Notes under the pieces: generated by a model
Seen by the model: only the letters and a program-made list of their open reading frames with translations
Databases searched by the model: none
Told to the model about the DNA's origin: nothing
Shown: positions 17,087 through 43,466 of the stretch, one piece after another
Position numbering within the stretch: position 1 is the stretch's first letter
Layout: each line of letters starts with the position of its first letter
Made by a program: the position numbers and the translations under genes
From: an uncultured Gammaproteobacteria bacterium
GTDB lineage: Bacteria > Pseudomonadota > Gammaproteobacteria > Pseudomonadales > UBA5518
Length of the DNA stretch: 64,000 bases
Direction: 5' to 3'
Assembly: GCA_903928015.1 (NCBI GenBank)
Contig: CAIYPF010000030.1
Location: forward strand, 124,001 to 188,000

Positions 17087-19264
17087 TCAGGGCATGAGCA
17101 CACGCACCGGTATGGCGCTCATCCGCGGGATCCCGCTGTACGGATCAACCTCATGCTCCACGCTGGAGAGCAAGGCCACATTCGACCCGAACTCGCGTAC
17201 GGGGCCGGGGTTCTCGGGGTCGGGCCCGAAGCAGTGGCTCATGGAGATCACGCCGCTGCGGATGCCGTCCTCCGCCTCGACGATGCCGGGGATCTCGCCA
17301 TAGCGCGAGGCGATGCGCACCTCGTCACCGTCCTTGAGTCCGAGCGAGAGGAGATCAGCCGGGTTCATGTACGCGGGGTTGTAGCGCTGCTTGCGCATCT
17401 GGCGCGGGTTGTTGCGGCCGGTGGTGTTCATCACGTGGTGCAGGCGGCGACTGATAAGGCGGAACGGGAAGTCCGCATCCTTGTCCTGCGCTTCCTGCGC
17501 GATCGAGGTCAGCTCGGCGCACATCGTCGCGTCACCGACCTGCAGACGGGCCTCGCGGCCGGCTTCGGCGGCCTCCACGAAGACATCCTCGCCCTCGAAA
17601 ACACGCCCCTGCGGCTCGCTCTTCACCGTGGCGAGGGGCACGCGGCCGCCGTCGCACAGCGCTGCGAAGAGTTCGTCGGTATCGGGCTTGTTCTCCATAT
17701 CGAAGCGGTAACGGCGCGGCTCGCCGCTGGTGGTGGTCCAGGAATAGGCGACCTTGATCTCGAGCGCGATCTGCATGCGCTTGGCGATGCCGTAGAAGAA
17801 CTCCCACTCCTCGACCACATCGGCTCCCTCGGGCAGCACCGCGGCAGGGGGCGCGTACTGCGCGTAGGGCACGGAGAAGCCGAAGCCGGTGCCGAAGTAA
17901 CTCAGCATCTCGTTCGGCAGCGTCATCGCCGGGCTCTCGAGGCTGTGCTTGCAGGCGATGGTGTAGTCCGCGAGATGGCAGCTGTTGTGGACTTTCTGGA
18001 TGTCGAGGCAGACGAAGAGCTCGAGCGCCTTCAGCGCCTTCAGCGTCTTGTTCTGGTCTGGCCAGGCCATCAGCGGGTTGCCGCCGATGGAAATCAGCGC
18101 TTTCACCTGCCCTTCCCCGGGCATGAGGATCTCGTCGGGCAGCGCCGAGGTGGCCAGCCCGCAGGCGGCATCGGTGAAGCCGCGCACGCGGAGTTTCTCG
18201 CCATAGCCCCAGGCGGGCCAGGGTGCGTTGGCCTGTGCACGCGGTGCGAAGCTCGGCCCGAGCACCCCCGGGTTGGGCACGCGCTCGCCCGCCTTCAGCC
18301 AGCGGCCGCAGAGACTCATCAGGCAGAGCAGCAGGTATTCCGTGAGGTTGCCGTGCGGCGCCATGTTGGGACCGGTGCCGGCGGTAGCGCCACCGCGCTT
18401 GGCCTGCGCATAGGTGCGCGCGGCGAGCACCAGATCATCGGCGGGAATCTGCGCGCGTGCGGCGACGTAATCGGGCGTGTAGGGCTCAACCGCCTGTGCG
18501 AGCGCCTCCATGCCCTGCACGTTGGCTTGCGCAAAATCGGCGTCAAAGAGCGATTCCTTGAGGATCACGCGGATCATGCCGGCCAGGATGGCTGCATCCT
18601 CGCCGGGTTTGGGCTGCAGGTGCACGAAGGCGCGATCGGCACATTCGGTGCGGCGCGGGTCGATCACGATGACCTTCATGCCGCGCTCGACGGCATCCTT
18701 CAGACGCTTGGCGGGATTCTGGTTGGGCACACCGCCCGAGTGCGCGACGATGGGGTTCACGCCCACGAGCAGCCAGGTGTCGGCGTCATCGAAGACCTGC
18801 GGGCCCGCCTGCCAGGTACCGTGCAACGCCGGGGCGATGGACTTGCCCGGCTGGTCGATGGTGTTGGAGGTGAACATCATGTTCGAGCCGATCGCGTTCA
18901 TCCACGCCGTCGACACCGGCTGCGTCGCGGGGTAGGTGAAGATGTAGGTGCCGGCATAGGTGGCGACGGCGCGAGGCCCGTGCTCGTCGATGATGCGCTT
19001 GAGTTTCTGCGCGACCTCGTCCATGGCCTGCGCGCTGGAAACGGGCGTGAAACTGCCGTCTTTCTCGCGGCGGATGCTGCTGAAAAGCCGGTCGGGATGC
19101 CGCACCTGGTTCACCATCTCGCGACCCTTGATGCAGGTGTAGCCCCAGTACACGGGGTTGTGCTTGTCGCCGATGATCCGTGTGGGCAGGCCGTCCTCAC
19201 GGTCGACGATGATCGGGCACATTGCGGCACAGGAGCGGCAGATGCCGTGGATTGTGTCTTGCAT
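17087..19264 (-). CDS. Molybdopterin-dependent oxidoreductase (DMSO reductase family), no. 1
   Basis: A 725-residue protein with an N-terminal [4Fe-4S] motif, Cys9-x2-Cys12-x3-Cys16 and Cys44, then the molybdopterin domains (IDPRRTECADRAF segment near the first third) and a C-terminal dinucleotide-binding domain (LSLGLKDGDEVRIASRYGEI). There is no Tat signal, so it should be cytoplasmic. It groups by eye with stand-alone members such as acetylene hydratase and related orphan oxidoreductases, which need no small iron-sulfur or membrane subunits. Substrate and reaction are unknown. GAGAGG lies 8 bases before the ATG. It is divergent from a GNAT gene and a second molybdopterin gene across 180 bases. 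Confidence 0.85.
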   Translation of the reverse strand: MQDTIHGICRSCAAMCPIIVDREDGLPTRIIGDKHNPVYWGYTCIKGREMVNQVRHPDRLFSSIRREKDGSFTPVSSAQAMDEVAQKLKRIIDEHGPRAVATYAGTYIFTYPATQPVSTAWMNAIGSNMMFTSNTIDQPGKSIAPALHGTWQAGPQVFDDADTWLLVGVNPIVAHSGGVPNQNPAKRLKDAVERGMKVIVIDPRRTECADRAFVHLQPKPGEDAAILAGMIRVILKESLFDADFAQANVQGMEALAQAVEPYTPDYVAARAQIPADDLVLAARTYAQAKRGGATAGTGPNMAPHGNLTEYLLLCLMSLCGRWLKAGERVPNPGVLGPSFAPRAQANAPWPAWGYGEKLRVRGFTDAACGLATSALPDEILMPGEGQVKALISIGGNPLMAWPDQNKTLKALKALELFVCLDIQKVHNSCHLADYTIACKHSLESPAMTLPNEMLSYFGTGFGFSVPYAQYAPPAAVLPEGADVVEEWEFFYGIAKRMQIALEIKVAYSWTTTSGEPRRYRFDMENKPDTDELFAALCDGGRVPLATVKSEPQGRVFEGEDVFVEAAEAGREARLQVGDATMCAELTSIAQEAQDKDADFPFRLISRRLHHVMNTTGRNNPRQMRKQRYNPAYMNPADLLSLGLKDGDEVRIASRYGEIPGIVEAEDGIRSGVISMSHCFGPDPENPGPVREFGSNVALLSSVEHEVDPYSGIPRMSAIPVRVLMP

Positions 19265-19444: not shown

Positions 19445-19990
19445 ATGCACATCCGCCCCGCCACACGCGCGGATTTCGACACCATCCTCGCGCTGAACGA
19501 GGCCTCCGTGTCCGTGCTCGCGCCGATGGATCTGGCACGGCTCGAGGCGCTGGACGCCGGCGCGAGTTACCACCGTGTGGTGGAGGAACATGCCCGGGTG
19601 CTCGCCTTCCTGCTGGTGTTCCGAGAAGGCGCCAGCTACGACAGCCCCAACTACCGCTGGTTCGCGGCGCGTTACCCGCGCTTCCTGTACATCGATCGCA
19701 TCGTGGTATCGGCCGATGCGCGTGGCCGCAGCATCGGTCCTGCGCTCTATGAGGACCTGATCGGGGTGGCGGGCGCCACGGGCGTGGATATGCTGTGCTG
19801 CGAGTACGACCTCGAACCGCCCAATCCCGGCTCGGCGCGTTTTCATGCCCGCTTCGGTTTCCGGGAGGCAGGGCAGCAACAGGTCGCAGACGGAAAAAAA
19901 TCGGTATCGCTGCAGATACTTCAACTGCCGCGTGCAACGGGCGGCATCGCTCATGACCATCCGGAAGGATCAACCGGGAGCACTGCATGA
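19445..19990 (+). CDS. GNAT-family N-acetyltransferase
   Basis: A 181-residue protein with the GNAT fold: MHIRPATRADFDTILALNE at the start, the strand YPRFLYIDRIVVS followed by the acetyl-CoA loop ADARGRSIGPALY (residues about 89-105), and a C-terminal ARFHARFGFREAG motif. It transfers acetyl groups to an amine; the acceptor is unknown. Its stop overlaps the start of the next gene (ATGA at 19987-19990), so it is translationally coupled to a molybdopterin enzyme. That pairing is unusual and may mean it modifies the same substrate or just shares the promoter. Confidence 0.85.
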   Translation: MHIRPATRADFDTILALNEASVSVLAPMDLARLEALDAGASYHRVVEEHARVLAFLLVFREGASYDSPNYRWFAARYPRFLYIDRIVVSADARGRSIGPALYEDLIGVAGATGVDMLCCEYDLEPPNPGSARFHARFGFREAGQQQVADGKKSVSLQILQLPRATGGIAHDHPEGSTGSTA

Positions 19991-22041
19991 ACACCATCGC
20001 CAGAACGGATTCACACACCATCCGCGCCGCCTGCCCCCACGACTGCCCCGACACCTGCGCGATGCGCGTGACGGTGGAAGATGGCCGCGTCACGCGCGTG
20101 GAGGGAGACCCGGATCATCCACCCACCGCCGGCGTGCTCTGCACCAAGGTGAGCCGTTACGCGGAACGCACCTATCATCCCGAGCGCGTGCTGCATCCGC
20201 TGAAACGCGTGGGCCCCAAAGGCAGCGGGCAATGGGAGCGGGTCAGCTGGGATGCTGCGCTCACGGACATCGCCGGGCGCCTCGGCAGCATCGCCGCGCG
20301 CGGGGCCGAGCGCATCCTTCCCTACAGCTACGCGGGCACCATGGGAAAACTCCAGGGCGAGAGCATCTCCGCGCGCCTCTTCCACGCGTTGGGCGCCTCG
20401 CAACTCGACGACACGATCTGCGCCTCCGCCGGCTCCGATGCGCTGGCTGCCACCTACGGCGGCAAGCTCGGCATGCACCTCGGTGATTTCGCGCACGCAG
20501 GGCTGATCCTCATCTGGGGCAGCAATTCCGTGGCCTCCAACCTGCACTTCTGGCGCCTCGCGCAGGACGCCAAGCGCAACGGCGCAACGCTGGTCTGCAT
20601 AGATCCGCGCCGCACCGAAACCGCCGAAAAATGCCACCGCCACATCGCGCTTCGTCCGGGCACCGACGGGGCGCTGGCACTGGCGCTGATGCACGAGATC
20701 TTCGCCAACGGCTGGGCGGATACCGCCTATCTCGAGGCACACGTGAACGGCTGGGAGGCGCTGCGCGAGCGTGCGCTCGGGTGGACGCCGGAGCGCGCCG
20801 CAGCGGAGTGCGGACTGGAAGCCGGGCAAATCCGCGAACTCGCGCAGATGTACGCGCACACGCGCCCCGCCGCCATACGCCTGAACTACGGCATGCAGCG
20901 CGTGGCCGGTGGCGGAAACGCCGTCCGACTGATCGCGCTCCTGCCCTGCGTCACCGGCGCATGGCGGGAACGCGGCGGCGGCATGCTGCTGTCGGCCTCG
21001 GGCTGGTTTGCGGGTGTGGTGAACGCGCAGGCGCTCGAGCGGCCGGACCTCATGCCCTCGCCCGCGCCGCGCGTGATCAACATGACCACGGTGGGAGACG
21101 CGCTGCTGCAGTCCGGCAGCGAGGATGCGGGCCCGCCCATCGAGGCCGTCGTGGTCTACAACAGCAACCCGGTGGCAATCGCGCCCGATTCGGGCAAGGT
21201 GGTGGCAGGCTTCCGCCGGGAAGACCTCTTCACGGTGGTGCTGGAGCACTTCCTCACCGACACCGCGGATCTCGCCGATTACGTGCTGCCCGCCACCACG
21301 CAACTCGAGCACCTCGACGTGCACACCTCCTACGGCCACACCTGGGTGCTGCTGAACGAGCCGGCGATCGCGCCACTCGGCGAATCGCGGCCCAACAACG
21401 CGATATTCCGCGACCTCGCCGCGAGGATGGGTTTCACGGACCCGCTCTTTGCGGAATCCGACGAGGAGCTGTTGCGCACGGCCATGGACAGCAGCCCCGT
21501 GAGCCTGGACGAACTTCGCGCCACCGGTTGGGTCCGCGCCCCGGTACCGGAACTGCCCTTCGCGGATGGCGGCTTCCACACGCCGGACGGCAAGGCGATC
21601 GTGGATTCACCGCTCTACGGCGTGCCGGACCACGTCCCCAATCGCGAATGCGCCACCACGGATCCCGCACTGGCCGCACGCTACCCGCTGGCGATGATCT
21701 CGCCGCCCGCGCGGCATTTCCTGAATTCCAGCTTCGTGAACGTGAAGAGCCTGCGCTCCATCGAGGGCGAGCCGCTGGTCGAGATCCACCCGGAAGACGC
21801 CGCCGTGCGCGGCATCAGCGAGGGGATGCGGGTGCGGGTATTCAATGACCGCGGCAGCTACACCTGCCGCGCCGAGGTGGGCGCGCGCGCACGGCCCGGC
21901 GTGGTGAACGCGCTCGGCGTGTGGTGGCGCAAGCTGAACGCCGACGGCAGCGGCGTGAACGACCTCACCAGCCAGGCGCTCACCGACATCGGCCGTGGCG
22001 CCACCTTCTACGACTGCCTGGTCGAGGTCGAGGCGCTCTGA
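19987..22041 (+). CDS. Molybdopterin-dependent oxidoreductase (DMSO reductase family), no. 2
   Basis: A 684-residue protein with an iron-sulfur motif of altered spacing, Cys16-x3-Cys20-x3-Cys24 and Cys52 (CPHDCPDTC), typical of the BisC/formate-dehydrogenase-like branch. Core segments include QGESISARLFHALGAS, IDPRRTETAEKCHRHIAL and a C-terminal MoPterin-binding domain (PPARHFLNSSFVNV, EGMRVRVFNDRGSY). No Tat signal is present, so it is cytoplasmic. It has no partner subunit in the window. It starts inside the stop codon of the GNAT gene. Its reaction cannot be deduced; it ends near a weak hairpin shared with the convergent PQQ dehydrogenase gene. Confidence 0.85.
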   Translation: MNTIARTDSHTIRAACPHDCPDTCAMRVTVEDGRVTRVEGDPDHPPTAGVLCTKVSRYAERTYHPERVLHPLKRVGPKGSGQWERVSWDAALTDIAGRLGSIAARGAERILPYSYAGTMGKLQGESISARLFHALGASQLDDTICASAGSDALAATYGGKLGMHLGDFAHAGLILIWGSNSVASNLHFWRLAQDAKRNGATLVCIDPRRTETAEKCHRHIALRPGTDGALALALMHEIFANGWADTAYLEAHVNGWEALRERALGWTPERAAAECGLEAGQIRELAQMYAHTRPAAIRLNYGMQRVAGGGNAVRLIALLPCVTGAWRERGGGMLLSASGWFAGVVNAQALERPDLMPSPAPRVINMTTVGDALLQSGSEDAGPPIEAVVVYNSNPVAIAPDSGKVVAGFRREDLFTVVLEHFLTDTADLADYVLPATTQLEHLDVHTSYGHTWVLLNEPAIAPLGESRPNNAIFRDLAARMGFTDPLFAESDEELLRTAMDSSPVSLDELRATGWVRAPVPELPFADGGFHTPDGKAIVDSPLYGVPDHVPNRECATTDPALAARYPLAMISPPARHFLNSSFVNVKSLRSIEGEPLVEIHPEDAAVRGISEGMRVRVFNDRGSYTCRAEVGARARPGVVNALGVWWRKLNADGSGVNDLTSQALTDIGRGATFYDCLVEVEAL

Positions 22042-24327: not shown

Positions 24328-26958
24328 TCAGGAGGGCCCCTGCGCTGCGTGAGCCAGCAACCGGTGCAGGGCATGGCGCAGCGGCGTGAGCAGCGCGAAC
24401 GCGGCCGGTACGTCGGCATTGCGGGCGGCCATCTCGAGCGCCAGGCAGCGCGGCGCGAGTTCGCCGCGCGTGAACAGGCGCGCGGCACCCAGCAACTGGT
24501 GCGCAATCTCGAGAGCCTGATCGGCCACGCCGTCCGCCAGTGCCTGCGTGAGTGCCCGCTCCAGGCGCTGGAGTTCGGCGAGCACCTCGCCGGGGCTTAT
24601 GCCCGTCACGCTCATCAGGCTGCAGTCCGGGCATTCCTCGTGCTGCAGCAGCACGGCCTGCAGCCGCCCCTCGTCCACGGGCTTGTAGAGAATCTCGGCC
24701 ACACCGGCATCCCGCAGCGCCCGCTCCTCGCTGCCGATCACGTTGGCAGTGAGGGCATAGAGCGGGAGAACGGGATCACGCTTGCGGATTTCCCGCGCGA
24801 GGCTGACGCCGTCCATCCCGGGCATGTGCACATCGAGCAGTACCAGATCGACGCTGTGCACCTGCAGCAGCGCGAGCGCCTCCTTGCCGCCACTCGCATC
24901 GAGCACCGTGATGCCGGTGTCCGCAAGGCTGGTGGCGAGCATGCGGCGGTTCAGTTCGTTGTCCTCGACCAGCAGGCAGCGCAGGGAGAGTCGCTGCCTT
25001 GGCGCGGCAAGGGGCTCGTCCGGATAGCGGTTGCGCGCCTGCGTGCGGCCCGCCATGCGAACGCAGGCAGCGATCAGTTCCCGCCGTCGCACCGGCAACG
25101 CCAGACACCGGGAAAGTTCGTCTGCGGACAGGGAACCCGTCTGCTCCACCGGCAACAGCCGCAGCACGGCACCCGAGGTCGCCGAGAGCATCAGCAGGGG
25201 CTGGTCTTCGATGCAGATCGTGAGATCGGGAACGGGAAAGCCACTGAGACTTCCCTGGCGCAGATCCAGACGACAGCCCGCGTGTTGCAGGTAATCCTGC
25301 ACCACCTGCAGATGCGGGCTCGCCGCATCGGCAAGTACACGCACACACAGGCCCCGCGCCTCAGTTGCGGGCTGTTCCTCGGCGGCGAGTTCCAGCGGCA
25401 GCTCAACGACCGCCCGGGTACCCTCTCCGAGCTCGCTCTCCAGCCGGATGCTGCCCTGCAAGGCCGAGAGGATGAGCGCCGATATCGAGAGCCCCAGACC
25501 GCTGCCGCCGAAGCGCCGGGTGATGCTCTCGTCGGCCTGCGTGAACGGCTGGAAAAGCTGCGCCACGCCCTCGGGCGCGATGCCGGTGCCGGTGTCACGC
25601 ACCTCGATGCGGACACGGAGTTTCCCGGGGCCGCGTTCGAGCAGATCCGCGAGCAGTTCGACGCCGCCCTGCTCCGTGAACTTGACCGCGTTGCTGAGAA
25701 GGTTGGCCAGCACCTGCGAGAGGCGTATCGCGTCGCCCGAGACGCGCGCGCCGAGTCCGGGCCCGAGGTGACAGACCAGCGCAAGCCCCTTGCGATGCGC
25801 TGCGGGCGCAAACATCAGTGCAGCGTCCTCGATGCAGGCGGCAAGCTCGAAGGGCCTGCGCTCCAGCGACACCGCGCCGCTCTCCAATCGCACGAGCTCG
25901 AGGATGTCGTCCACGGTCCGCTGCAGGATGCCCGAGGCCTGGGCGATGGGACGGTAGAACTCGGCGCGCTGGGCGGGCGTCTCCGATTCGCGCATCAGGC
26001 GCGCATAGCCCACGACCGTGCTGAGCGGCGTGCGCAACTCGTGGCTCATGCGCGCGAGGAACAGATCCTTGGCACGGTTGGCGGCTTCCGAGCCCGCAAG
26101 CGCCGCGTCGAGCTTGCGGTTGCGGCGCTCGAGCTCGAGGTTGGACAGGGCAATCACCGCCGTGGCCTCGTCGATCTTGCGGTTGAGGTCGGCCGATGCC
26201 GATTCCACCTGGTCGGCCATCGCATTGATGCCGTCCTCGAGTTCGCGCAGCTCCCCCGTACCACTGGGCTCGGTACGCGCCGACATATCCCCCCGGCGGA
26301 TCCGCGAGACCACGCGCAGCAACTGCTGCAGTGGCTCGCTCAGCCGGGTCGAGGCAAGCCCCGCGATGAACAGGGCGGCGACCACGGCCACACCGGTGCT
26401 GATTGCGGCATTGATGAAGAGCCCGCGCTGCAGCGAGGCGAGCTCCTCGGGGTCGAAGGACAGCAGCACCTTGCCGAGCAGCATGCCCGCGCCGGGCGCA
26501 GCGCCATCGCCGTTCGCCCCGAAAGGGGGATCTGCCTCGGACTCCGCCTGCGACCGGACCTCGCGTCCGAACAGTCTGCGCTGCTCTTCCCCCGAACACT
26601 GGGCAGTGGCGCGCATGCAATTGAGTGCGAGATCGATCTCCCGGGGGCTACCGGCCGCGGCCAGCACAACCCCGTTGGCATCGAGGAACAGGGCCACGCG
26701 TGCCGCCCCCGAGGCGCGGATATTGCTCTGGGCAAGCCGCGAGAGGGCGGCATCATCGCCCACGAGCAATGCGAGTTCTGCCGCACCGGAGAGGTAGGCC
26801 GCCTCGCGCTCGCCGCGCGCCTGCAGCTCGGCTCTCGCGTCGTTCAGACGACTCGCGGTGAACCAGATGCTGAGCGCGAGCGCCGGCACTAACGTGGGAA
26901 TCAGCACCACCAGAAAGGCCGTGCTGCGGATGCTGCGTTTCATGGCTGTCCTTGCCAC
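24328..26958 (-). CDS. Membrane hybrid sensor kinase with receiver and Hpt-like domain (BarA/GacS layout)
   Basis: An 876-residue kinase: TM1 (about 14-33), a periplasmic sensor (34-180), TM2 (181-203), HAMP (204-258), a coiled coil, HisKA with His306 (FLARMSHELRTPL), HATPase (NLLSNAVKF; DTGTGIAPE; GGSGLGLSIS), a degenerate receiver-like stretch, a receiver (658-770; Asp709, Lys759) and a C-terminal Hpt-like domain. The Hpt motif reads AHQLLGAARLF: His820 is present but the usual Lys three residues later is Leu. The layout is that of BarA/GacS, which phosphorylates a UvrY/GacA regulator; none is in the window. It precedes the PQQ dehydrogenase on the same strand, so it might be cotranscribed. 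A downstream start at 26943 (MKRSIRS) is also possible. Confidence 0.88.
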   Translation of the reverse strand: MARTAMKRSIRSTAFLVVLIPTLVPALALSIWFTASRLNDARAELQARGEREAAYLSGAAELALLVGDDAALSRLAQSNIRASGAARVALFLDANGVVLAAAGSPREIDLALNCMRATAQCSGEEQRRLFGREVRSQAESEADPPFGANGDGAAPGAGMLLGKVLLSFDPEELASLQRGLFINAAISTGVAVVAALFIAGLASTRLSEPLQQLLRVVSRIRRGDMSARTEPSGTGELRELEDGINAMADQVESASADLNRKIDEATAVIALSNLELERRNRKLDAALAGSEAANRAKDLFLARMSHELRTPLSTVVGYARLMRESETPAQRAEFYRPIAQASGILQRTVDDILELVRLESGAVSLERRPFELAACIEDAALMFAPAAHRKGLALVCHLGPGLGARVSGDAIRLSQVLANLLSNAVKFTEQGGVELLADLLERGPGKLRVRIEVRDTGTGIAPEGVAQLFQPFTQADESITRRFGGSGLGLSISALILSALQGSIRLESELGEGTRAVVELPLELAAEEQPATEARGLCVRVLADAASPHLQVVQDYLQHAGCRLDLRQGSLSGFPVPDLTICIEDQPLLMLSATSGAVLRLLPVEQTGSLSADELSRCLALPVRRRELIAACVRMAGRTQARNRYPDEPLAAPRQRLSLRCLLVEDNELNRRMLATSLADTGITVLDASGGKEALALLQVHSVDLVLLDVHMPGMDGVSLAREIRKRDPVLPLYALTANVIGSEERALRDAGVAEILYKPVDEGRLQAVLLQHEECPDCSLMSVTGISPGEVLAELQRLERALTQALADGVADQALEIAHQLLGAARLFTRGELAPRCLALEMAARNADVPAAFALLTPLRHALHRLLAHAAQGPS

Positions 26959-34821: not shown

Positions 34822-34966
34822 GCTGTATCTCTCAAGACGCCGTGTTCGGGGCAAGCATAACAGCGGCTCCTGAGGGCATGCCGGGCACGGGTCGCCGTGG
34901 CGGGGATTGTGCCCCGATCCGGGCGCATTTAAGGTTCGCGCCTCAAACCGCAGACAGCATCCACCC

Positions 34967-36223
34967 ATGCAGCGCCCCCTGCCCCGCGAGGCATTCCTCC
35001 GCGAAGACACCTACGCCCGGACCCGCAAGCCGGTGGACCTCGCCTGGACGCTGATCCCGGATGCCTACACCTCGCCGGAGTTCCACGCCCTCGAGCAGCA
35101 GAGGATCTTCGCGAAGAACTGGGTGCCCGTGTGCCTCGCCGAGGAAATCGGCAAACCCGGCGATTTCCGTGTCGTCGAGGTGGCCGGACGCTCGCTGATC
35201 CTCACCCGCAACGCAGACGGTGAACTGCGCGCCTTCCACAACGTGTGCAGACACCGCGGCGCCCGGCTCTGCGATGGTTCAGGCCACACCGGGCGGTTCT
35301 TCACCTGCCCCTATCACAACTGGGCCTACGATCTGGATGGGGCCTGCCGGGCAACGCCGCACTTCGCACCCGCAGATCCGCTGCAAGTGCCCTGCGATGC
35401 GGGAGACGAGGCCTTCGATCGCGCCAACATGGGTCTGTATACGGCCCGTGTCGCGCAGTGGGCGTGCCTGATATTCGTGTGCCTGGATCCCTCGAGCCCC
35501 GAACTGACCGAGGAACTGGGCGATCTGCCGGAGCGCTTCCGCGCATACCGCGTGGGCGAATACCGGATCGCGAGGCGCGTCGACTACGAGATCAAGGCCA
35601 ACTGGAAACTGGTGGCCGAGAATTTCATGGAGTACTACCACCTGCCCTCGATACACCCCGCGCTGCTCGATGTCTCGCCGGTGGAAGCGCATTACCGCTG
35701 GCAAGGCGCAGGCAAGTACGTGGGGCTCTGCACCTGGCCGGTGGGTGCGGATACCGATGACGGCGGCTGGAGAGGACTGCCTCCGCTGGCCGGCATCACT
35801 GGCCAGGATGCCGACGCCGCACGTTTTGCCTGGGTTTTCCCGACGATTGGCATCAGCGTGAACGCCAACCACGTGTTCCTGCTGATCGCCCGGCCCACGG
35901 CAGCGGGAATCACGGAGGAAAGCGCCTACTTGCTCACGCACCCCGAGTCGGTCGCGGCAAGCGCGGATCCGGAGAGCGCGACGGACGAGTTGCTGCGCTT
36001 CTGGGACACGATCAACCGCGAGGACATCGCCGTGGTCGAGCGGGTTCAGGACGGTCTGCAGAACACCGAATACCAGGGCGGCCGCATGTGCTCGCGCTTC
36101 GAGGAGTCCTGCCACCGTTTCCAGAACATGGTGATCGACGCCATGCTCGGACTGCAGCGCATACCCTCAGGCGACGACCCCGAAACGGCGCGCCGCTTCG
36201 GACCTCCCCAGAACGACGCCTGA
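34967..36223 (+). CDS. Rieske aromatic-ring-hydroxylating oxygenase, alpha subunit type
   Basis: A 418-residue oxygenase. The Rieske [2Fe-2S] site is Cys94-x-His96 and Cys114-x2-His117 (CRHRGARLC, CPYHNW); the mononuclear iron site has His225 and His230 in NFMEYYHLPSIHP. The layout matches ring-hydroxylating dioxygenases and choline/carnitine monooxygenase-like proteins. No beta subunit, ferredoxin or reductase is next to it, which favours an alpha-only homotrimer fed by a remote reductase. It is unlike the KshA-like fragment at the left edge. ATG 34967 is chosen as the nearest start to the conserved PREAFLREDTY; another ATG lies 60 bases upstream. Confidence 0.88.
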   Translation: MQRPLPREAFLREDTYARTRKPVDLAWTLIPDAYTSPEFHALEQQRIFAKNWVPVCLAEEIGKPGDFRVVEVAGRSLILTRNADGELRAFHNVCRHRGARLCDGSGHTGRFFTCPYHNWAYDLDGACRATPHFAPADPLQVPCDAGDEAFDRANMGLYTARVAQWACLIFVCLDPSSPELTEELGDLPERFRAYRVGEYRIARRVDYEIKANWKLVAENFMEYYHLPSIHPALLDVSPVEAHYRWQGAGKYVGLCTWPVGADTDDGGWRGLPPLAGITGQDADAARFAWVFPTIGISVNANHVFLLIARPTAAGITEESAYLLTHPESVAASADPESATDELLRFWDTINREDIAVVERVQDGLQNTEYQGGRMCSRFEESCHRFQNMVIDAMLGLQRIPSGDDPETARRFGPPQNDA

Positions 36224-36354: not shown

Positions 36355-38289
36355 TCAGCCGCACGCCAGCAACCTGCCCAAGGTTTCTGACAACAGCTTT
36401 ACATCGATGGGCTTGGTCAGACAGTCGACCATGCCGGCCTGCCGGCACCGCTCGAGTTCCTCGGGCAGGGCATAGGCGGTCATCGCGACGATGGGCGGAC
36501 AATCCGCGCCCAGCCGGGAGACGATCTGTCGCGTGGCCTCGAGGCCGTCCATCTCCGGCATATGCACATCCATCAGGATGAGGTCGAAGCCCGCATCCGG
36601 CCGGCAGGCCATCTCGACGGCCACCTCGCCGTTATTGGCGATGCTCACACTCATGCCGTCGCGCTCGAGGAATTTGCGCGCCACCAGCTGGTTCACAGGC
36701 ACGTCCTCGACCAGCAGGACTCGCCGACCGGAGAGCATGCAGCCCGGCTCTGGCTGGGGCCGGCCGAGCGGCTCGGGCACGGGCATGCTGGCGGCGGGCA
36801 AGGGCAGCGTGAACGTGAAACAGGCGCCCGCGCCGGGAACGGAAGTCACCCCCAACTCGCCGCCCATCATGCGCACGAGCTCTGCACTGATCGTGAGTCC
36901 CAGACCCGTGCCGCCAAAGCGGCGCGTGGTGGATTCATCGGCCTGCGTGAAGGGGCTGAACACGCGCTCTATCTGCTGCTGGCTGAGGCCGATGCCGGTA
37001 TCACGCACACTGAACGTGATGCCGGATACATCCCTGTCGACCTGCAGTTCGACCTGCCCTTCCGGCGTGAACTTGATCGCATTCGACAGGAGATTGGAAA
37101 GAACCTGGCGCAGCCGAAGCGGATCTCCCTGCACGATCTGCGGCAGCCCGACCTCGAGCCCGAGCAGCAGCTCGAGGCCACGCCCCGAGGCAAGCACGGC
37201 GAAGGAGCCGTGCAGCGAGTCCAGCAGTTCGCGCAGGTTGAAGGGGATGCGTTCAAGCGATACCGCACCGGCCTCCAGCTTGGAGAAATCGAGCAGGTCG
37301 TTGATGAGTGCGAGCAGATCAGCGCCCGCGTTGCGTATCAAACCGGCGTATTCGCGCAGGCGTGCTTCCTCGGGTTCCGAGGCGGCCAGTTCACCCAAAC
37401 CCAGAATGGCCGTGAGCGGCGTGCGGATTTCGTGCGAGACGGTGGCGAGGAAACGGCTCTTGGCATCGCTCGCGGCGGCGGCCGCACGTGCTGCCTCGGC
37501 CTGTGCCTGCGCGGCCTCGATGCGATCCGTGATGTCCAGGCACGAGCCCACATGACCGGCGAAGACGCCTTCTGGCGTGAAACGCGGTGCCGCGCGGTCG
37601 GACACCCATCGCCAGAGGCCATCGCAGCGCCGCATGCGGTAGTCCTCCTCCAGAAGGCTGCGGGTGTTCACGGCCCGCGAGTAAGCCTCCACGCAACGCT
37701 CCCGGTCCTCCGGATGGATATTGTCGATCCAACCGTCGTCTCTTTCCTCTTCCATCGAGCGACCCGTGAACTCGAGCCAGGCGCGGTTGTAGTAGTCACC
37801 CTCGCCACCGGGGCCCGAGGTCCAGATCATGCCGGGCGAGGCATCGGCCATCAGGCGGAAGCGCTGCTCGCTATCCTGCAGTGCTGCGCTGTTCTGCCGC
37901 AATTCCCGCTCATAACGCAGGGTCTCGGCGATCTCCTGCAAGGAGACCATGTAAGCATCGGTTTCGAGCCGGTAGATGGTCGCGGCGACCATCACCTCGT
38001 GCCCGCCCGGCCCCGCTCCCTGAAGGCGCAGACGACGCTGGTCCCATACAAGCCCGCTCGGGGCGCTGAAGTCCGCGATATGACGCCGGAGATCGGGGGC
38101 ACTGCTGGCAAGCACCTCGTAGAGGTTCATCAACCGGGATGTCACAGGTACCAGGAGCCGCGTGACCTCCGGGTTCAGCATCTCGATGCTGCCGTCGCCG
38201 CGCATCATCAGGAGGCCGGTGGGCACCTGATAGAGGAATCGGAGGAGGCGTTCGTTCTCCTCGGCAAGTTCGCGCGTGCGATCGATCAT
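36355..38289 (-). CDS. Soluble PAS-PAS hybrid histidine kinase, partner of the PYP gene
   Basis: A 644-residue kinase with no membrane segment. It starts with a short coiled coil (RTRELAEENERLLRFLYQ), then a PAS-like domain (about 12-125; GLLMMRGDGSIEMLNPEVTR), a second PAS with a PAC motif (140-256; WRWVSDRAAPRF, DITDRI), a coiled linker rich in Ala, HisKA His286 (FLATVSHEIRTPL), HATPase (NLLSNAIKF; DTGIGLSQQ; GGTGLGLTIS) and a receiver (522-644; Asp574, Lys627). There is no Hpt domain. ATG 38289 is 4 bases after the stop of the photoactive yellow protein gene, so the two should be cotranslated. The kinase is likely the signalling partner of that photoreceptor; its target is not in view. Confidence 0.9.
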   Translation of the reverse strand: MIDRTRELAEENERLLRFLYQVPTGLLMMRGDGSIEMLNPEVTRLLVPVTSRLMNLYEVLASSAPDLRRHIADFSAPSGLVWDQRRLRLQGAGPGGHEVMVAATIYRLETDAYMVSLQEIAETLRYERELRQNSAALQDSEQRFRLMADASPGMIWTSGPGGEGDYYNRAWLEFTGRSMEEERDDGWIDNIHPEDRERCVEAYSRAVNTRSLLEEDYRMRRCDGLWRWVSDRAAPRFTPEGVFAGHVGSCLDITDRIEAAQAQAEAARAAAAASDAKSRFLATVSHEIRTPLTAILGLGELAASEPEEARLREYAGLIRNAGADLLALINDLLDFSKLEAGAVSLERIPFNLRELLDSLHGSFAVLASGRGLELLLGLEVGLPQIVQGDPLRLRQVLSNLLSNAIKFTPEGQVELQVDRDVSGITFSVRDTGIGLSQQQIERVFSPFTQADESTTRRFGGTGLGLTISAELVRMMGGELGVTSVPGAGACFTFTLPLPAASMPVPEPLGRPQPEPGCMLSGRRVLLVEDVPVNQLVARKFLERDGMSVSIANNGEVAVEMACRPDAGFDLILMDVHMPEMDGLEATRQIVSRLGADCPPIVAMTAYALPEELERCRQAGMVDCLTKPIDVKLLSETLGRLLACG

Positions 38290-38293
38290 CCGT

Positions 38294-38650
38294 TTAGCGG
38301 AGCACGGCCACGTAGCGGGTGGTCTGACCGGGCGCCTTGAGCAGGCGCAGGCGCACCGGCGTTGGCCGGACACGGAAGGTGAAGGTGTACTCGATCTGGT
38401 CATCGATGGCGGCTTCCTCGTCGAAGCGGTGGGCGACGAGGTAGTTGTTCATGCAGGGAGCAACATCGGTGAAGAGGTGACGACCCAGCACGCGGTCCCT
38501 CTTGTAGCACACGCTTTCGGACTCGGTCGCGTTGTAACGCGTGACGAGGCCCTCGGGATCGAAGCCTATGACGCCGAAGGGGAGAGAATCGAGAACATCG
38601 TCCGAGGCCGCGTCAAGAGCAGCCGCAAGATCGCTTTGATCGAATTGCAT
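38294..38650 (-). CDS. pyp: Photoactive yellow protein (PYP) family photoreceptor
   Basis: A 118-residue cytoplasmic PAS-fold blue-light sensor that carries p-coumaric acid on a cysteine. It aligns with my recollection of Halorhodospira halophila PYP without gaps from LPFGVIGFD to DVAPC, with an offset of 3: Tyr39 (=Tyr42), Glu43 (=Glu46) and chromophore Cys66 (=Cys69, in DVAPC) are kept. Thr50 is Val47, Arg52 is Tyr49 and Met100 is Val94. The C-terminal part EYTFTFRVRPTPV also fits. ATG 38650 has AGAGG upstream and gives a normal N-terminus; a GTG at 38677 would add 9 residues. It is followed after 4 bases by a hybrid kinase. No p-coumarate ligase or tyrosine ammonia-lyase gene is in the window. 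Confidence 0.9.
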   Translation of the reverse strand: MQFDQSDLAAALDAASDDVLDSLPFGVIGFDPEGLVTRYNATESESVCYKRDRVLGRHLFTDVAPCMNNYLVAHRFDEEAAIDDQIEYTFTFRVRPTPVRLRLLKAPGQTTRYVAVLR

Positions 38651-38716: not shown

Positions 38717-39337
38717 TCACCCCACCCGCCACGTCCACACCCGCATCGGCACGCCCTCGCCGTGCTCTGTCACCAGTGCAGCGGGTTCGCTGCACCGGAG
38801 CAGCGCCCATTGCCCTGCCGCGCTCAGTTCCTCAACCGAGGCGGCGAAACCCAGGTCACGGAACACATCGTCACGGAAGCTGAGGGTGATGGTGCCGCCC
38901 GGGCGCAGCAGCATGCCCAGCGCGGCAAGCGGGCCCGGGCCCACGTGACCGAATGTGAACACACCCACACTCACCACCGCATCGAGGCTGCCCGGCGCAA
39001 GCGGCAGTGCCTCGGTGAGCGAGGCCTGGAGCAATTCGTCATAGGCTCCCGTCAACGCGGCCTTCTCCAGCATGCCGGCAGAAAAATCGATGCCGATCAC
39101 CCGTGCGGCACCACCCGTACGCAGGGCCACACCGACCTGACCCGTTCCGCAACCGGCATCGAGCACCACGCCACCACGCCCGCCCTGATCGAGGCACTGC
39201 GCGGCAGCAGCACCCGGGGCGGCCCAATCGAGGACGTCCATGTCAGCGTCGTAGTGCGCGGACCACTCGTCGTACCGGCGCTGCAGATCCTCCGGATCGG
39301 TGGCGGCATAGATCCAGTCGAGGCGCTCGGAACTCAT
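38717..39337 (-). CDS. Class I SAM-dependent methyltransferase
   Basis: A 206-residue protein with the Rossmann-like SAM-binding motif VLDAGCGTGQVGVAL (residues about 58-72), the acidic ribose loop VIGIDFSAGML and the post-II segment LRPGGTITLSFRDD. The start MSSERLDWIYAATDPEDLQRRYDEWSA resembles the Williams-Beuren region 27 (METTL27)-like group. The substrate is unknown. Its ATG overlaps the stop of the upstream LLM oxidoreductase (ATGA, 39334-39337), so they are coupled. It precedes the PYP gene by 66 bases on the same strand, so all four genes could share a transcript. Confidence 0.85.
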   Translation of the reverse strand: MSSERLDWIYAATDPEDLQRRYDEWSAHYDADMDVLDWAAPGAAAAQCLDQGGRGGVVLDAGCGTGQVGVALRTGGAARVIGIDFSAGMLEKAALTGAYDELLQASLTEALPLAPGSLDAVVSVGVFTFGHVGPGPLAALGMLLRPGGTITLSFRDDVFRDLGFAASVEELSAAGQWALLRCSEPAALVTEHGEGVPMRVWTWRVG

Positions 39338-40230
39338 GCGCCCAGACTCCCCAGCACGTCGCGCGTGCGGCGGATCAGGGTGCGCAGGCCGCTGATGTCG
39401 GCGGTGTCGCCCTCGTGCTGGGCGATCATCAGACGGCCAACAGGAAGATCGAGGTAACGCCGCATGAGCTCCTTATCGAGCGAGCCACGGAACTGCCAGC
39501 TGCCGGGCCACACCGTGAGTTCGACCGCTGCCGGATCACGGCCGGCTGCACGCGCCGCGGCATACAGATCTTGCAGGCGCAACGCCAGATCTTCCGGTGA
39601 AATCACGTAGGGGTAAAAACCGTTGCCCAGACGACCTGCCCGGCGCGCGGCCGCCGCCGTGCTGCCACCGACGATAATCGGCACACCGCCCTCCTGCACC
39701 ACCGGCACATCGCAGAAAACACGGTGGAATTGCAGGAATTCCCCCTCGAAGGACGCCGGAGACCGGGTCCACAGCGCACGCATGGCGAGGATGTTCTCGT
39801 CCATGCGGCGGCCACGCTCAGTGAAGGGGATGTTGAGCGCTGCGTACTCTTCTTCCTGCCAGCCCAGACCTGCACCGAGCATGATGCGGCCGCGGGTCAG
39901 CTGATCGATCGTGGCGAGGCGTTTGGCGAGCTGCACCGGACTGTACTGCGGGAGTATGAGCACGCCGGTGGCGAACTTCAGCCGCCGCGAGTGCGCAGCG
40001 GCGAAGGTGAGCCAGGCCAGCGGATCGGGCATGGAGGTGAGCTCGTCCGTAGGCATGCGGCCATCGGCCGAATAGGGATAGTTGGGCTTGTAGTTTTCGG
40101 CGACCAGCACATGCTCCACGCCCCACAAAGACTCGACCTCTTCCTCGTCGAGCATCGCCACAAGCTCCGCCACCCAGTCCGGATCGCAGACGATGCCGCG
40201 GCGGAACAGTGGAATCACCCCGATCTTCAT
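39334..40230 (-). CDS. LLM-class (luciferase-like) F420/FMN oxidoreductase
   Basis: A 298-residue TIM-barrel protein of the luciferase-like monooxygenase family, subgroup usually called F420-dependent (Rv2161c-like). Key segments are MKIGVIPLFRRG, VLILPQYSPVQLAKRLATID, GRIMLGAGLGWQEEEYAALN and GVPIIVGGSTAAAARRAGR. These enzymes oxidise or reduce alcohols and ketones using F420 or FMN; the sequence does not settle which. I chose ATG 40230 because GGAG sits 7 bases upstream; an ATG two codons earlier would put that site too close. It is divergent from an esterase gene and coupled to the methyltransferase. Confidence 0.85.
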   Translation of the reverse strand: MKIGVIPLFRRGIVCDPDWVAELVAMLDEEEVESLWGVEHVLVAENYKPNYPYSADGRMPTDELTSMPDPLAWLTFAAAHSRRLKFATGVLILPQYSPVQLAKRLATIDQLTRGRIMLGAGLGWQEEEYAALNIPFTERGRRMDENILAMRALWTRSPASFEGEFLQFHRVFCDVPVVQEGGVPIIVGGSTAAAARRAGRLGNGFYPYVISPEDLALRLQDLYAAARAAGRDPAAVELTVWPGSWQFRGSLDKELMRRYLDLPVGRLMIAQHEGDTADISGLRTLIRRTRDVLGSLGA

Positions 40231-40362
40231 CTGCATGCTCCGGCAAACCCTCACAGACCGCCGAGCAGACAGCAAAGACCACCGATGCGTCAATCGCGGC
40301 TCGACGCCCCGCGCCGGGCGCCGCTATGCTCCGGCCGCAACCGCAGACTCCGGAGCCGCCCG

Positions 40363-41322
40363 ATGGCAGAAGACACCACCGGCAAATACGCCATCCTTCC
40401 CGAATTCAGCAAATTCCCGGCATTGCCGGTACGGAACAGCCCGTGGCTGTTGCGGCTGCTCAGCCTCTTCATCGCGGCACAGCGGCTCACGCAGCGCTGG
40501 AAGCCCGGCATACGGGCGCTGCGGCGTCAGGTGCGCAGGGGCACGGACGCACCCGTGCGCGTGATCGAGGTAAGCGCAGCCGGCTCCGCCGATCCATCGC
40601 CCGCGCTGATCTACTGCCACGGCGGGGCGTTCTTCCTCACCTACGCGGCCATCCATCTGGACAACGCGCAGCACATCGCGCGAGCGACGGGCTGCAAGGT
40701 GTTCGTGGTCGATTACCGGCTCTCGACCGAGGCTCCCTTCCCGGCACAATTCGACGACTGCTATTCCTGCCTGCGCTGGGTACACGAACAGGCCGAGGAA
40801 CTCGGCGTCGACCCCTCACGCATCGGCGTGATGGGCGACAGTGCGGGCGGGGCCCTTGCCGCAGGACTCGCCCAGAAAGCACGCGACGAGGGCTTGGCGG
40901 TGCGAGCACAGATCCTGCTCTATCCGGTCACGGATTCCTCCTGCAGCAGCGCATCCGCGCAGGCCTTCACCGACACGCCGCTGTGGACCGCCGGCGCAAA
41001 CCGCATCATGTGGGACATCTACCTCCGCGGCAGCCCCACGAACCCGCCGCCCCGCTATGCATCCCCCTCTCACCGCGAGGATCTCTCGGGGCTGCCGGCA
41101 GCCTATGTGGAAACCGCGGAATTCGACCCGCTGCGCGACGAGGCCATCGACTACGCCAAACGGCTGGCCGCGGCGGGCGTCACGGTGCGTCTCAACAAGA
41201 CGCGCGGCACCATCCACGCCATCGACACCGTGCCAGGCTCGCCCACTACCCAGGCGGCCATGGGCAAGCGCGTCGAAGCGGTGCGTGAATTGCTGGTCGA
41301 TCCGGAGGGCATGGCAGCATGA
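40363..41322 (+). CDS. Hormone-sensitive-lipase family alpha/beta hydrolase
   Basis: A 319-residue esterase. The oxyanion-hole motif is HGGAFF (residues 86-91), the nucleophile is Ser150 in GDSAGG, and the triad is completed by Asp245 (EFDPLRDE) and His275 (GTIHAID). A 50-residue N-terminal cap precedes the core. Members hydrolyse short acyl esters, lactones or steroid and terpene esters. There is no signal peptide. The start at ATG 40363 is the first before the conserved region; the frame stays open into the divergent LLM gene. Its stop overlaps the start of molybdopterin enzyme no. 3 (ATGA, 41319-41322), suggesting linked metabolism. Confidence 0.88.
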   Translation: MAEDTTGKYAILPEFSKFPALPVRNSPWLLRLLSLFIAAQRLTQRWKPGIRALRRQVRRGTDAPVRVIEVSAAGSADPSPALIYCHGGAFFLTYAAIHLDNAQHIARATGCKVFVVDYRLSTEAPFPAQFDDCYSCLRWVHEQAEELGVDPSRIGVMGDSAGGALAAGLAQKARDEGLAVRAQILLYPVTDSSCSSASAQAFTDTPLWTAGANRIMWDIYLRGSPTNPPPRYASPSHREDLSGLPAAYVETAEFDPLRDEAIDYAKRLAAAGVTVRLNKTRGTIHAIDTVPGSPTTQAAMGKRVEAVRELLVDPEGMAA

Positions 41323-43466
41323 GCACGCACTATCGCGCCTGTCATCTCTGCGAGGCCATCTGCGGGCTGGAGATACGCGTCGAGGATGGCCGCATCGCCG
41401 GCATCCGGGGCGACTCCGAAGACCCGTTCAGTCATGGCTACATCTGCCCCAAGGCCACCGCGCTCGCCGACATACAGGAAGATCCTGACCGGCTGCGCCG
41501 TCCGCTGCTGCGCGAAGGAAGCACGTGGCGGGAAATCGGCTGGGACGAGGCCTTCGCCCTGGCCGCCGAGCGCCTGCACGCCGTCCGCGCGCAGCACGGT
41601 GCCGATGCAGTAGCGATCTACCGCGGCAATCCCAATGTCCACAACTGGGGATTGATCACGCACGCGAACCACTTCCTGAAGCGCCTCGGCACGCGCAACA
41701 ACTACTCCGCCACCTCGGCCGACCAGTTGCCGCACCACCTCGTGTGCCTGTGGATGTACGGGCACCAGTTCCTGCAGCCGATTCCCGATATCGACCGCTC
41801 GCAGCATCTGCTGCTGATCGGCTACAACCCGATGGCATCGAACGGCAGCATCATGACGGTGCCCGATTTCCGTGGCCGCCTGAAAGCCTTGCAAGCGCGT
41901 GGCGGCAAAATGGTGGTTATCGACCCCCGCCGCACGGAAACCGCAGCCGTGGCAGACGAGCATCACTTCGTGCGGCCGGGCAGCGATGCCTTCCTGCTGC
42001 TCGCACTCCTGCAGGTGATCCTGAGCGATGGCAGCGCGCGCCCTGGCCCGGACGGCGTGGCACTGCGCGGACTGGAATCGCTCCCCGCGCTGCTGGCGCG
42101 CTTCACACCGGAGCTCGCCGGGGAGCGCACGGGTATCGAAGCCGAGACCATCCGCCGCATCGCACGTGATTTCGCGGCAGCCCCGCGGGCCGCATGCCAC
42201 GGCCGCATGGGCGTCTCGACGCAGCGCTTCGGCGCGCTCTGCCAATGGGCGATACAAGTGCTCAACCTCATCACCGGAAACCTCGACCGCGAGGGCGGCA
42301 CGCTGCTCACGCATCCGGCCGTGATGGGCGCAGGCCCCGACGACCGCCAGCGGGGCAGCTTCGGGCGACGGCGCAGCCGCGTCCGCGGCTATCCGGATTT
42401 CAGCGGCGAGTTCCCCGTGGCAGGGCTTGCAGAGGAAATGCTCACGCCCGGCGAGGGGCAGGTGCGCGCACTTGTGACGGTGGCCGGCAACCCCGTGCTG
42501 TCGACACCGAACGGGCCGCGCCTCGATGCTGCGCTCGCCGGACTCGATTTCATGCTTGCCATCGATTTCTACCTGAACGAAACCACCCGGCACGCCACGC
42601 TCATCCTGCCGCCCACGACCTCGCTGGAGCACGATCACTACGACATCGCCTTCCACCGTTTCGCAGTGCGCAACACCACGCGCTACAACGCTCCGGTACT
42701 GCCGAAACCGGAAGGCTCGATGCACGACTGGGAGATTTTTGCAGGCCTCGCAGACGCCGACGCGCGCATCGATGGCGGCTCCGCCCCGGCGGTCGCTTCA
42801 CCGGCGCAGATGCTCGACCTGATGCTGCAATCCGGTCCCTACGGCGCAGCCGCAGGCGACGCGCGCGCACTCAGCCTCGCTGTGCTGGAAGCCGCACCCC
42901 ACGGCATCGATCTGGGGCCGCTCAGACCCTCGCTGCCGCAGCGCCTGTGCACGGAGGACGGTGGCATCGATTGCCTTCCTCCACTGATCCCGGCGGAACT
43001 CGAGCGCCTGTGGCAGGAGCCTGCCGTGCCCGCAGGGCAGTTGCTGCTGATCGGGCGGCGTCACGTGCGCAGCAACAACTCCTGGATGCACAACAGCCAC
43101 AGGCTCACCAAGGGGCCGCGGCGCGATCATCTGCTCGCACACCCCGGGGATCTTGCCGCGCGCGGGATCGCCGATGGTGCAGAGGTGCTGCTCAGCTCAC
43201 GCGTGGGCGAGTTGCGGGTGGTGGTGGAAGCCAGCACGGACATGATGCCGGGCAGCATCTCGCTGCCGCATGGCTGGGGCCACGACAAGGCAGGAACACG
43301 GCTTGGCGTGGCAGCGGCACAGCCGGGCGTGAGCGCGAACGACCTCACAGACGAGTTGTGGCTCGACGAACTCTGCGGCAACGCGGCGCTGAACGGCGTG
43401 CCGGTAGAGATCAGACCTGTCCCAGCGTCTCCCGCACTGCAGTCGCCCGGTCGCTCAGGCGGCTGA
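41319..43466 (+). CDS. Molybdopterin-dependent oxidoreductase (DMSO reductase family), no. 3
   Basis: A 715-residue cytoplasmic molybdopterin protein with a [4Fe-4S] site Cys8-x2-Cys11-x3-Cys15 and Cys43 (CHLCEAICG, YICPK), then YRGNPNVHNWG, GYNPMASNGS and IDPRRTETAA cofactor segments, NPVLSTPNG, and a C-terminal pterin-binding domain (GRRHVRSNNSWMHN, GSISLPHGWGHDKAG). The last of these is found in many stand-alone family members. It is the third such gene in about 26 kb; like the others it lacks partner subunits and a Tat signal. It is translationally coupled to an esterase, so its substrate may be an ester hydrolysis product. The final 56 bases overlap the convergent HDOD gene. Confidence 0.87.
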   Translation: MSTHYRACHLCEAICGLEIRVEDGRIAGIRGDSEDPFSHGYICPKATALADIQEDPDRLRRPLLREGSTWREIGWDEAFALAAERLHAVRAQHGADAVAIYRGNPNVHNWGLITHANHFLKRLGTRNNYSATSADQLPHHLVCLWMYGHQFLQPIPDIDRSQHLLLIGYNPMASNGSIMTVPDFRGRLKALQARGGKMVVIDPRRTETAAVADEHHFVRPGSDAFLLLALLQVILSDGSARPGPDGVALRGLESLPALLARFTPELAGERTGIEAETIRRIARDFAAAPRAACHGRMGVSTQRFGALCQWAIQVLNLITGNLDREGGTLLTHPAVMGAGPDDRQRGSFGRRRSRVRGYPDFSGEFPVAGLAEEMLTPGEGQVRALVTVAGNPVLSTPNGPRLDAALAGLDFMLAIDFYLNETTRHATLILPPTTSLEHDHYDIAFHRFAVRNTTRYNAPVLPKPEGSMHDWEIFAGLADADARIDGGSAPAVASPAQMLDLMLQSGPYGAAAGDARALSLAVLEAAPHGIDLGPLRPSLPQRLCTEDGGIDCLPPLIPAELERLWQEPAVPAGQLLLIGRRHVRSNNSWMHNSHRLTKGPRRDHLLAHPGDLAARGIADGAEVLLSSRVGELRVVVEASTDMMPGSISLPHGWGHDKAGTRLGVAAAQPGVSANDLTDELWLDELCGNAALNGVPVEIRPVPASPALQSPGRSGG

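Follow-up and report, generated by a model that had tools for sequence, protein, structure and literature searches.

Which protein receives the signal of a stand-alone photoactive yellow protein (PYP)? PYP is among the best-studied photoreceptors, and the partner of its stand-alone forms was called unknown by Xing 2022 (PMC9664959); as late as 2026, the H. halophila PYP was still described as having an unidentified partner (PMC13250908). The question is raised by a locus in the window, by which we mean the whole analysed stretch of 64,000 nucleotides from an uncultured gammaproteobacterium (genome 4.27 Mb, 220 contigs, 97% complete). Here, a PYP-family gene, pyp (38294..38650, minus strand, 118 aa), is followed on the same strand by the gene for a soluble hybrid histidine kinase (36355..38289, minus strand, 644 aa, ATG at 38289). 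The pyp stop codon TAA, the spacer ACGG (38290..38293, minus strand), and the kinase ATG directly succeed one another, and thus exactly 4 bases lie between the two genes, in agreement with the gap given in the initial annotation.

The 118-aa product had been assigned to the PYP family from its residues Tyr39, Glu43, and Cys66, the last within DVAPC, and this assignment held. These pocket residues correspond to Tyr42, Glu46, and Cys69 of the Hhal protein, as confirmed by alignment to the PYPs in the PDB, which the window PYP matched with an E-value of 2e-15, and to 23 other family members. TIGR02373 was the sole family match, scoring 72.9 bits (E 2e-20) against a model cut-off of 143 bits. According to PMC9664959, this model recovers only about 20% of the PYP homologues, and many homologues match PAS_4 instead; the window PYP also matches PAS_4 in Pfam. 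Several other positions are substituted in the window PYP: Tyr113 stands at the Trp119 position, Ile at the Phe92 position, and Tyr49 at the Arg52 position, where the rest of the clade usually has Leu, while Phe96 is retained as Phe90. Furthermore, the Met100 position is occupied by Val94. Since Met100 has been proposed as the catalyst of chromophore re-isomerisation (PMC9664959), this replacement suggests that the window PYP may recover slowly, and hence give a long-lived signal.

The kinase starts with a domain of 130 residues (residues 1–130; 37900..38289, minus strand), to which AlphaFold2 gave a PAS fold. Behind it, Pfam placed, all on the minus strand, a generic second PAS domain of the PAS_3/PAS_4 type (residues ~142–256; 37522..37866), HisKA (residues 276–341; 37267..37464), HATPase_c (residues 388–498; 36796..37128), and a C-terminal receiver, REC (residues 524–635; 36385..36720). 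The HisKA, HATPase_c, and REC matches exceed the Pfam cut-offs, and a motif search located the phospho-acceptor His286 in SHEIRTP and Asp574 in ILMDVHMP. Mean hydropathy over 19 residues reaches 1.3 at most, and the kinase therefore has no membrane segment. The cytoplasmic PAS-PAS-HisKA-HATPase-REC architecture described in the initial annotation was thus borne out by Pfam and hydropathy, with the first PAS coming from AlphaFold2 only. The HisKA-HATPase-REC core strongly matches the hybrid kinases of the TorS/ArcB/BarA type, but the equivalog scores are far below their cut-offs, and the window kinase differs in lacking a membrane part and an Hpt domain and in having its own N-terminal domain. 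One earlier statement, that no Hpt lies in the window, proved incorrect, as a second hybrid kinase (24328-26958, minus strand, 876 aa, HisKA-HATPase-REC) ends in a C-terminal Hpt domain with 27.8 bits (cut-off 24.6); it shows no link to the PYP-adjoining kinase.

The neighbourhood of the two genes was compared with those of genus relatives. Upstream of pyp and on the same strand lie the genes for a SAM methyltransferase (38717..39337, minus strand, 66 bp upstream) and a luciferase-like (LLM) monooxygenase (39334..40293, minus strand). Besides the window's species, two others in the genus retain the PYP–kinase pair; they are represented by uncultured gammaproteobacterial MAGs (G141 and G114, with identical matches L075 and L098), and the proteins are 70% (PYP) and 71% (kinase) identical to those of the window in G141, and 63% and 57% identical in G114. 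The LLM monooxygenase gene is upstream of pyp on the same strand in all three pair-bearing species, and the methyltransferase gene is present in G141 (L035) and absent in G114 (L034). PYP was absent from three further genus members searched, and the best kinase matches in these genomes begin at residue ~200 or later with at most 47% identity, indicating that they have no kinase orthologue. As a result, the proposed coupling of PYP to the kinase is well supported: the pair is present in three species, and both genes are missing in three other members of the genus. On the other side of the kinase, a convergent gene encodes the alpha subunit of a Rieske ring-hydroxylating dioxygenase (34907-36223, plus strand), and a homologue is also found on the PYP–kinase contigs of both relatives (L034 and L035).

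PYP–kinase adjacency as such has been published before and was therefore set aside as the central finding. Kinases near PYPs were noted by Xing 2022 (PMC9664959), and Dohmen 2025 (PMC12826048) counted 8 pyp operons with HisKA and 9 with HATPase, likewise placing PYP and a histidine kinase in one predicted operon; the kinase is usually upstream of pyp in that survey, but downstream in the window. PYP light input is also coupled to a histidine kinase in Ppr of Rhodospirillum centenum (PMC2993699, PMC9664959), which is, however, a single PYP–phytochrome–histidine kinase fusion with a PYP of another clade, whereas the window has separate ORFs and no phytochrome, Pfam detecting neither a PHY nor a GAF domain in the PYP-adjoining kinase. 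For the stand-alone PYP of Idiomarina loihiensis, binding to the GGDEF protein encoded next to it was proposed (cited in PMC9664959), but that PYP belongs to clade A. Xing 2022 further reported neighbouring GGDEF proteins without describing a common domain in them, and a domain common to the PYP neighbours is not mentioned in the searched passages of that paper and of PMC12826048. The new element is such a domain, together with its almost exclusive association with one PYP clade; the adjacency of PYPs to kinases and GGDEF proteins was already known.

The domain was first recognized when residues 1 to ~125 of the kinase were found conserved beside two distant PYPs from the window's order: in one genome (G221), the gene directly after pyp encodes the domain in front of GGDEF-EAL, and in the other (G225), the gene directly before pyp encodes it at the front of a 243-residue PAS-PAS protein. 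With five PYPs as queries, we scanned 84,980 species genomes and took the best 80 loci, which span Pseudomonadota, Myxococcota, Actinomycetota, and Thermodesulfobacteriota, are mostly from Burkholderiales, and are not mutually independent. In 78 of these 80 loci, pyp is directly followed by a same-strand gene that starts with the partner domain. One exception (L142) ends its contig just past pyp, and in the other (L132) an insertion element separates pyp from the rest of the partner gene. The outputs encoded by the 78 first genes are, by Pfam, GGDEF (67), EAL (8), HisKA (6), REC (4), and HD (1), and in 37 of the best 80 loci a second partner-domain gene follows, mostly for a GGDEF-EAL protein.

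To control for profile drift, 78 loci of other genera were searched with the window domain as the sole query, which matched 115 ORFs in 77 of them. All of the 120 domain matches were no more than 4.2 kb downstream of a PYP, with none elsewhere in the loci, and the control query, the second PAS of the same kinase, matched only 3 ORFs. Several loci carry further features. The insertion in L132 (8543-10443) consists of two transposition genes resembling IstA/IstB, situated inside the partner-domain GGDEF gene beside pyp. Two Thermodesulfobacteriota genes (L149, 8338-9468; L138, 8338-8961) overlap the pyp stop and encode the partner domain with an HD-type phosphohydrolase region behind it; this region was recognized by Pfam HD_5 in L149 and by a matching motif in L138.

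The association was also evident in whole genomes. Among 300 Burkholderiales genomes, 7 contain the partner domain, and all 7 encode a PYP (hypergeometric P 2e-13); the only other of the 8 PYP-encoding genomes (G862) has divergent PYPs outside the window's clade. In these genomes, 14 of the 15 domain copies are ~2 kb or less downstream of a PYP. In the window's order, 392 genomes were searched, and the domain scored above 100 bits only in the five with PYPs of the window's clade, two of which (G221 and G225) had been used to build the domain model, and the next-best score was 31 bits; no partner domain was found in the 6 genomes of this set with a PYP above the TIGR02373 cut-off. Furthermore, in 49 of the genomes that supplied the named loci, 78 of the 85 domain copies follow a PYP by no more than 4 kb, and 56 of the 57 PYPs of the window's clade have the domain immediately downstream, with a median gap of 36 bp between the matched regions. 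The single exception (G1043:C471) sits at the end of its contig, and another contig of that genome (C482) starts with the partner domain. In contrast, none of the 11 other PYPs in these 49 genomes has the domain downstream (Fisher P 8e-12). In the Methylobacterium genomes, PYPs lie on open frames of ~900 aa that resemble Ppr-type fusions, and a partner domain was not found beside them. Six domain copies are unlinked to any PYP on their contig (for example, G899:C41). These results establish that the partner domain co-occurs near-exclusively, and in adjacency, with one PYP clade, while the outputs behind it vary.

Two loci, L086 and L097, carry both kinds of PYP side by side, and the partner domain accompanies only the PYP of the window's clade. 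The second, H. halophila-like PYP genes (L086, 11012-11389; L097, 12800-13261) lie without the domain a few kb from the clade PYP, and the one in L097 adjoins genes for an aromatic ammonia lyase and a CoA-ligase-like protein.

In the phylogeny, the PYPs with the partner domain formed one clade (support 100/99) apart from the H. halophila PYP and its kin. Val72 is nearly fixed in this clade and differs in the H. halophila-like PYPs, and the clade-fixed residues that differ from those PYPs include Asn69, Asp83, Leu101, and Arg102. Judged by its features, and outside the published tree, the clade is probably clade C of Xing 2022 (PMC9664959), which also consists of stand-alone PYPs with the Tyr/Glu/Cys pocket, lacks Trp119 and Phe92, and has mostly Burkholderiales members with GGDEF-protein neighbours; however, Met100 is conserved there, whereas the window PYP has Val. 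On the tree of the partner domain, parsimony gave 13 output-type changes for five groups, or 9 without the group 'other', a rough count because the tree is poorly resolved, with only 5 of the 35 inner branches well supported. A search of viral contigs found no PYP relatives.

We also investigated the fold of the partner domain. Residues 1–130 of the kinase gave no match to Pfam or NCBIfam. When 38 members of the domain family were searched, a single one matched PAS_8 of Pfam weakly (E 3e-4), and none matched NCBIfam. Nevertheless, AlphaFold2 folded residues 1–130 as a PAS domain (pLDDT 94, pTM 0.82), and the nearest solved structures in Foldseek were generic PAS domains (E ~1e-4, probability 1.00). 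An origin as a degenerate PYP was considered, and it is not claimed here because profile comparison found only a weak shared PAS similarity (probability 31%).

The initial annotation had named the first PAS as a candidate docking site for PYP, and this proposal gained strong new support, as the domain is the only one common to the proteins beside the PYPs of the clade. It is a strong candidate for the part of the protein that is contacted by PYP. We thus consider it quite probable that the blue-light input is split here over two proteins, with the stand-alone PYP signalling to a dedicated PAS-fold receiver, which in the window drives a hybrid kinase. In this PYP–receiver model, we infer that the two proteins bind, that light has an effect, in which direction the kinase is regulated, and that the chromophore is loaded. 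Cys66 of the PYP would carry the p-coumarate chromophore, and the protein would dock, by direct PAS–PAS contact, on the N-terminal receiver PAS of the protein encoded next; pairing between PAS domains is common. The partial unfolding of PYP in its signalling state may then alter the helix leading into the output. In the kinase, the signal would pass from the receiver through the second PAS to HisKA, where light would change the autophosphorylation of His286, and the phosphoryl group would be relayed to Asp574 in the kinase's own REC and on to some Hpt and regulator. Elsewhere among bacteria, this PYP–receiver pair would drive diguanylate cyclases, GGDEF-EAL proteins, other kinases, and HD-type proteins. 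It also appears likely that the whole stand-alone PYP clade signals via this one dedicated PAS-fold receiver, which would make the pair a portable two-piece light switch and the receiver the first defined partner of a soluble PYP. AlphaFold2 was further applied to the PYP and partner of one locus (L118) joined by stop-codon read-through, with an alignment of 112 rows, 11 of them paired. Both domains were well folded, but the pTM of 0.61 and the disordered linker mean that no confident PYP–partner interface was obtained.

Other explanations would account for parts of these data. Adjacency and co-transfer alone can yield co-occurrence, and the two genes might thus form a co-transferred cassette without direct contact, serving a joint light or redox response in which the domain senses a ligand of its own and PYP acts via another protein. 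The modelled PAS fold could accommodate a ligand, and the six domain copies unlinked to a PYP would fit this explanation. It is nevertheless unlikely, since only the N-terminal domain is constant in front of at least four kinds of output, the control PAS of the same kinase lacks the association, and the association is limited to one PYP clade, being absent for the 11 other PYPs in the same genomes. That PYP and kinase are merely co-transcribed neighbours without a functional relation is very improbable. The operon does include the metabolic-looking monooxygenase and methyltransferase genes, and the window genome alone has ~77 kinase matches, but the joint presence and joint absence of the two genes within the genus, and a near-exclusive domain association across hundreds of genomes, argue against a chance neighbourhood.

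The supply of the chromophore bears on a further alternative, in which PYP would sense the availability of p-coumarate or p-coumaroyl-CoA rather than light, becoming loaded from environmental plant phenolics and signalling its holo or apo state to the kinase. Indeed, no aromatic ammonia lyase (PF00221, TAL/HAL family) was detected in the window genome, although five of the control genomes did match, and when 19 PYP-bearing genomes were searched, the enzyme was missing in 12. PMC12826048 also suggested that p-coumarate is taken up from the surroundings. However, the same source finds TAL in only ~5% of pyp operons, and since its lack is so common, it provides no specific argument for p-coumarate sensing. 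In addition, the photocycle residues Cys, Tyr, and Glu are conserved nearly throughout the window's PYP clade. We therefore regard p-coumarate sensing as rather improbable, and the absence of the lyase is not a refutation of light sensing by PYP.

Returning to the PYP–receiver model, a specific 130-residue domain accompanies essentially all PYPs of one clade, so that a simple binding experiment can address the partner question, and, if the model is true, the pair would constitute a modular optogenetic switch with interchangeable outputs. The locus of G225 (L036, 6424-12522) comprises pyp, the gene for the output-less, domain-bearing PAS-PAS protein, two chemoreceptor-like genes, and an aromatic ammonia lyase gene, and suggests a phototaxis version in which the partner may act as an adaptor.

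The window contains further genes of interest. A giant protein of 2968 aa with RTX calcium-binding nonapeptide repeats (HemolysinCabind) is encoded at 7988-16894 on the minus strand, and three separate molybdopterin oxidoreductase genes lie within 27 kb (17087-19264, minus strand; 19987-22041, plus strand; 41319-43466, plus strand).
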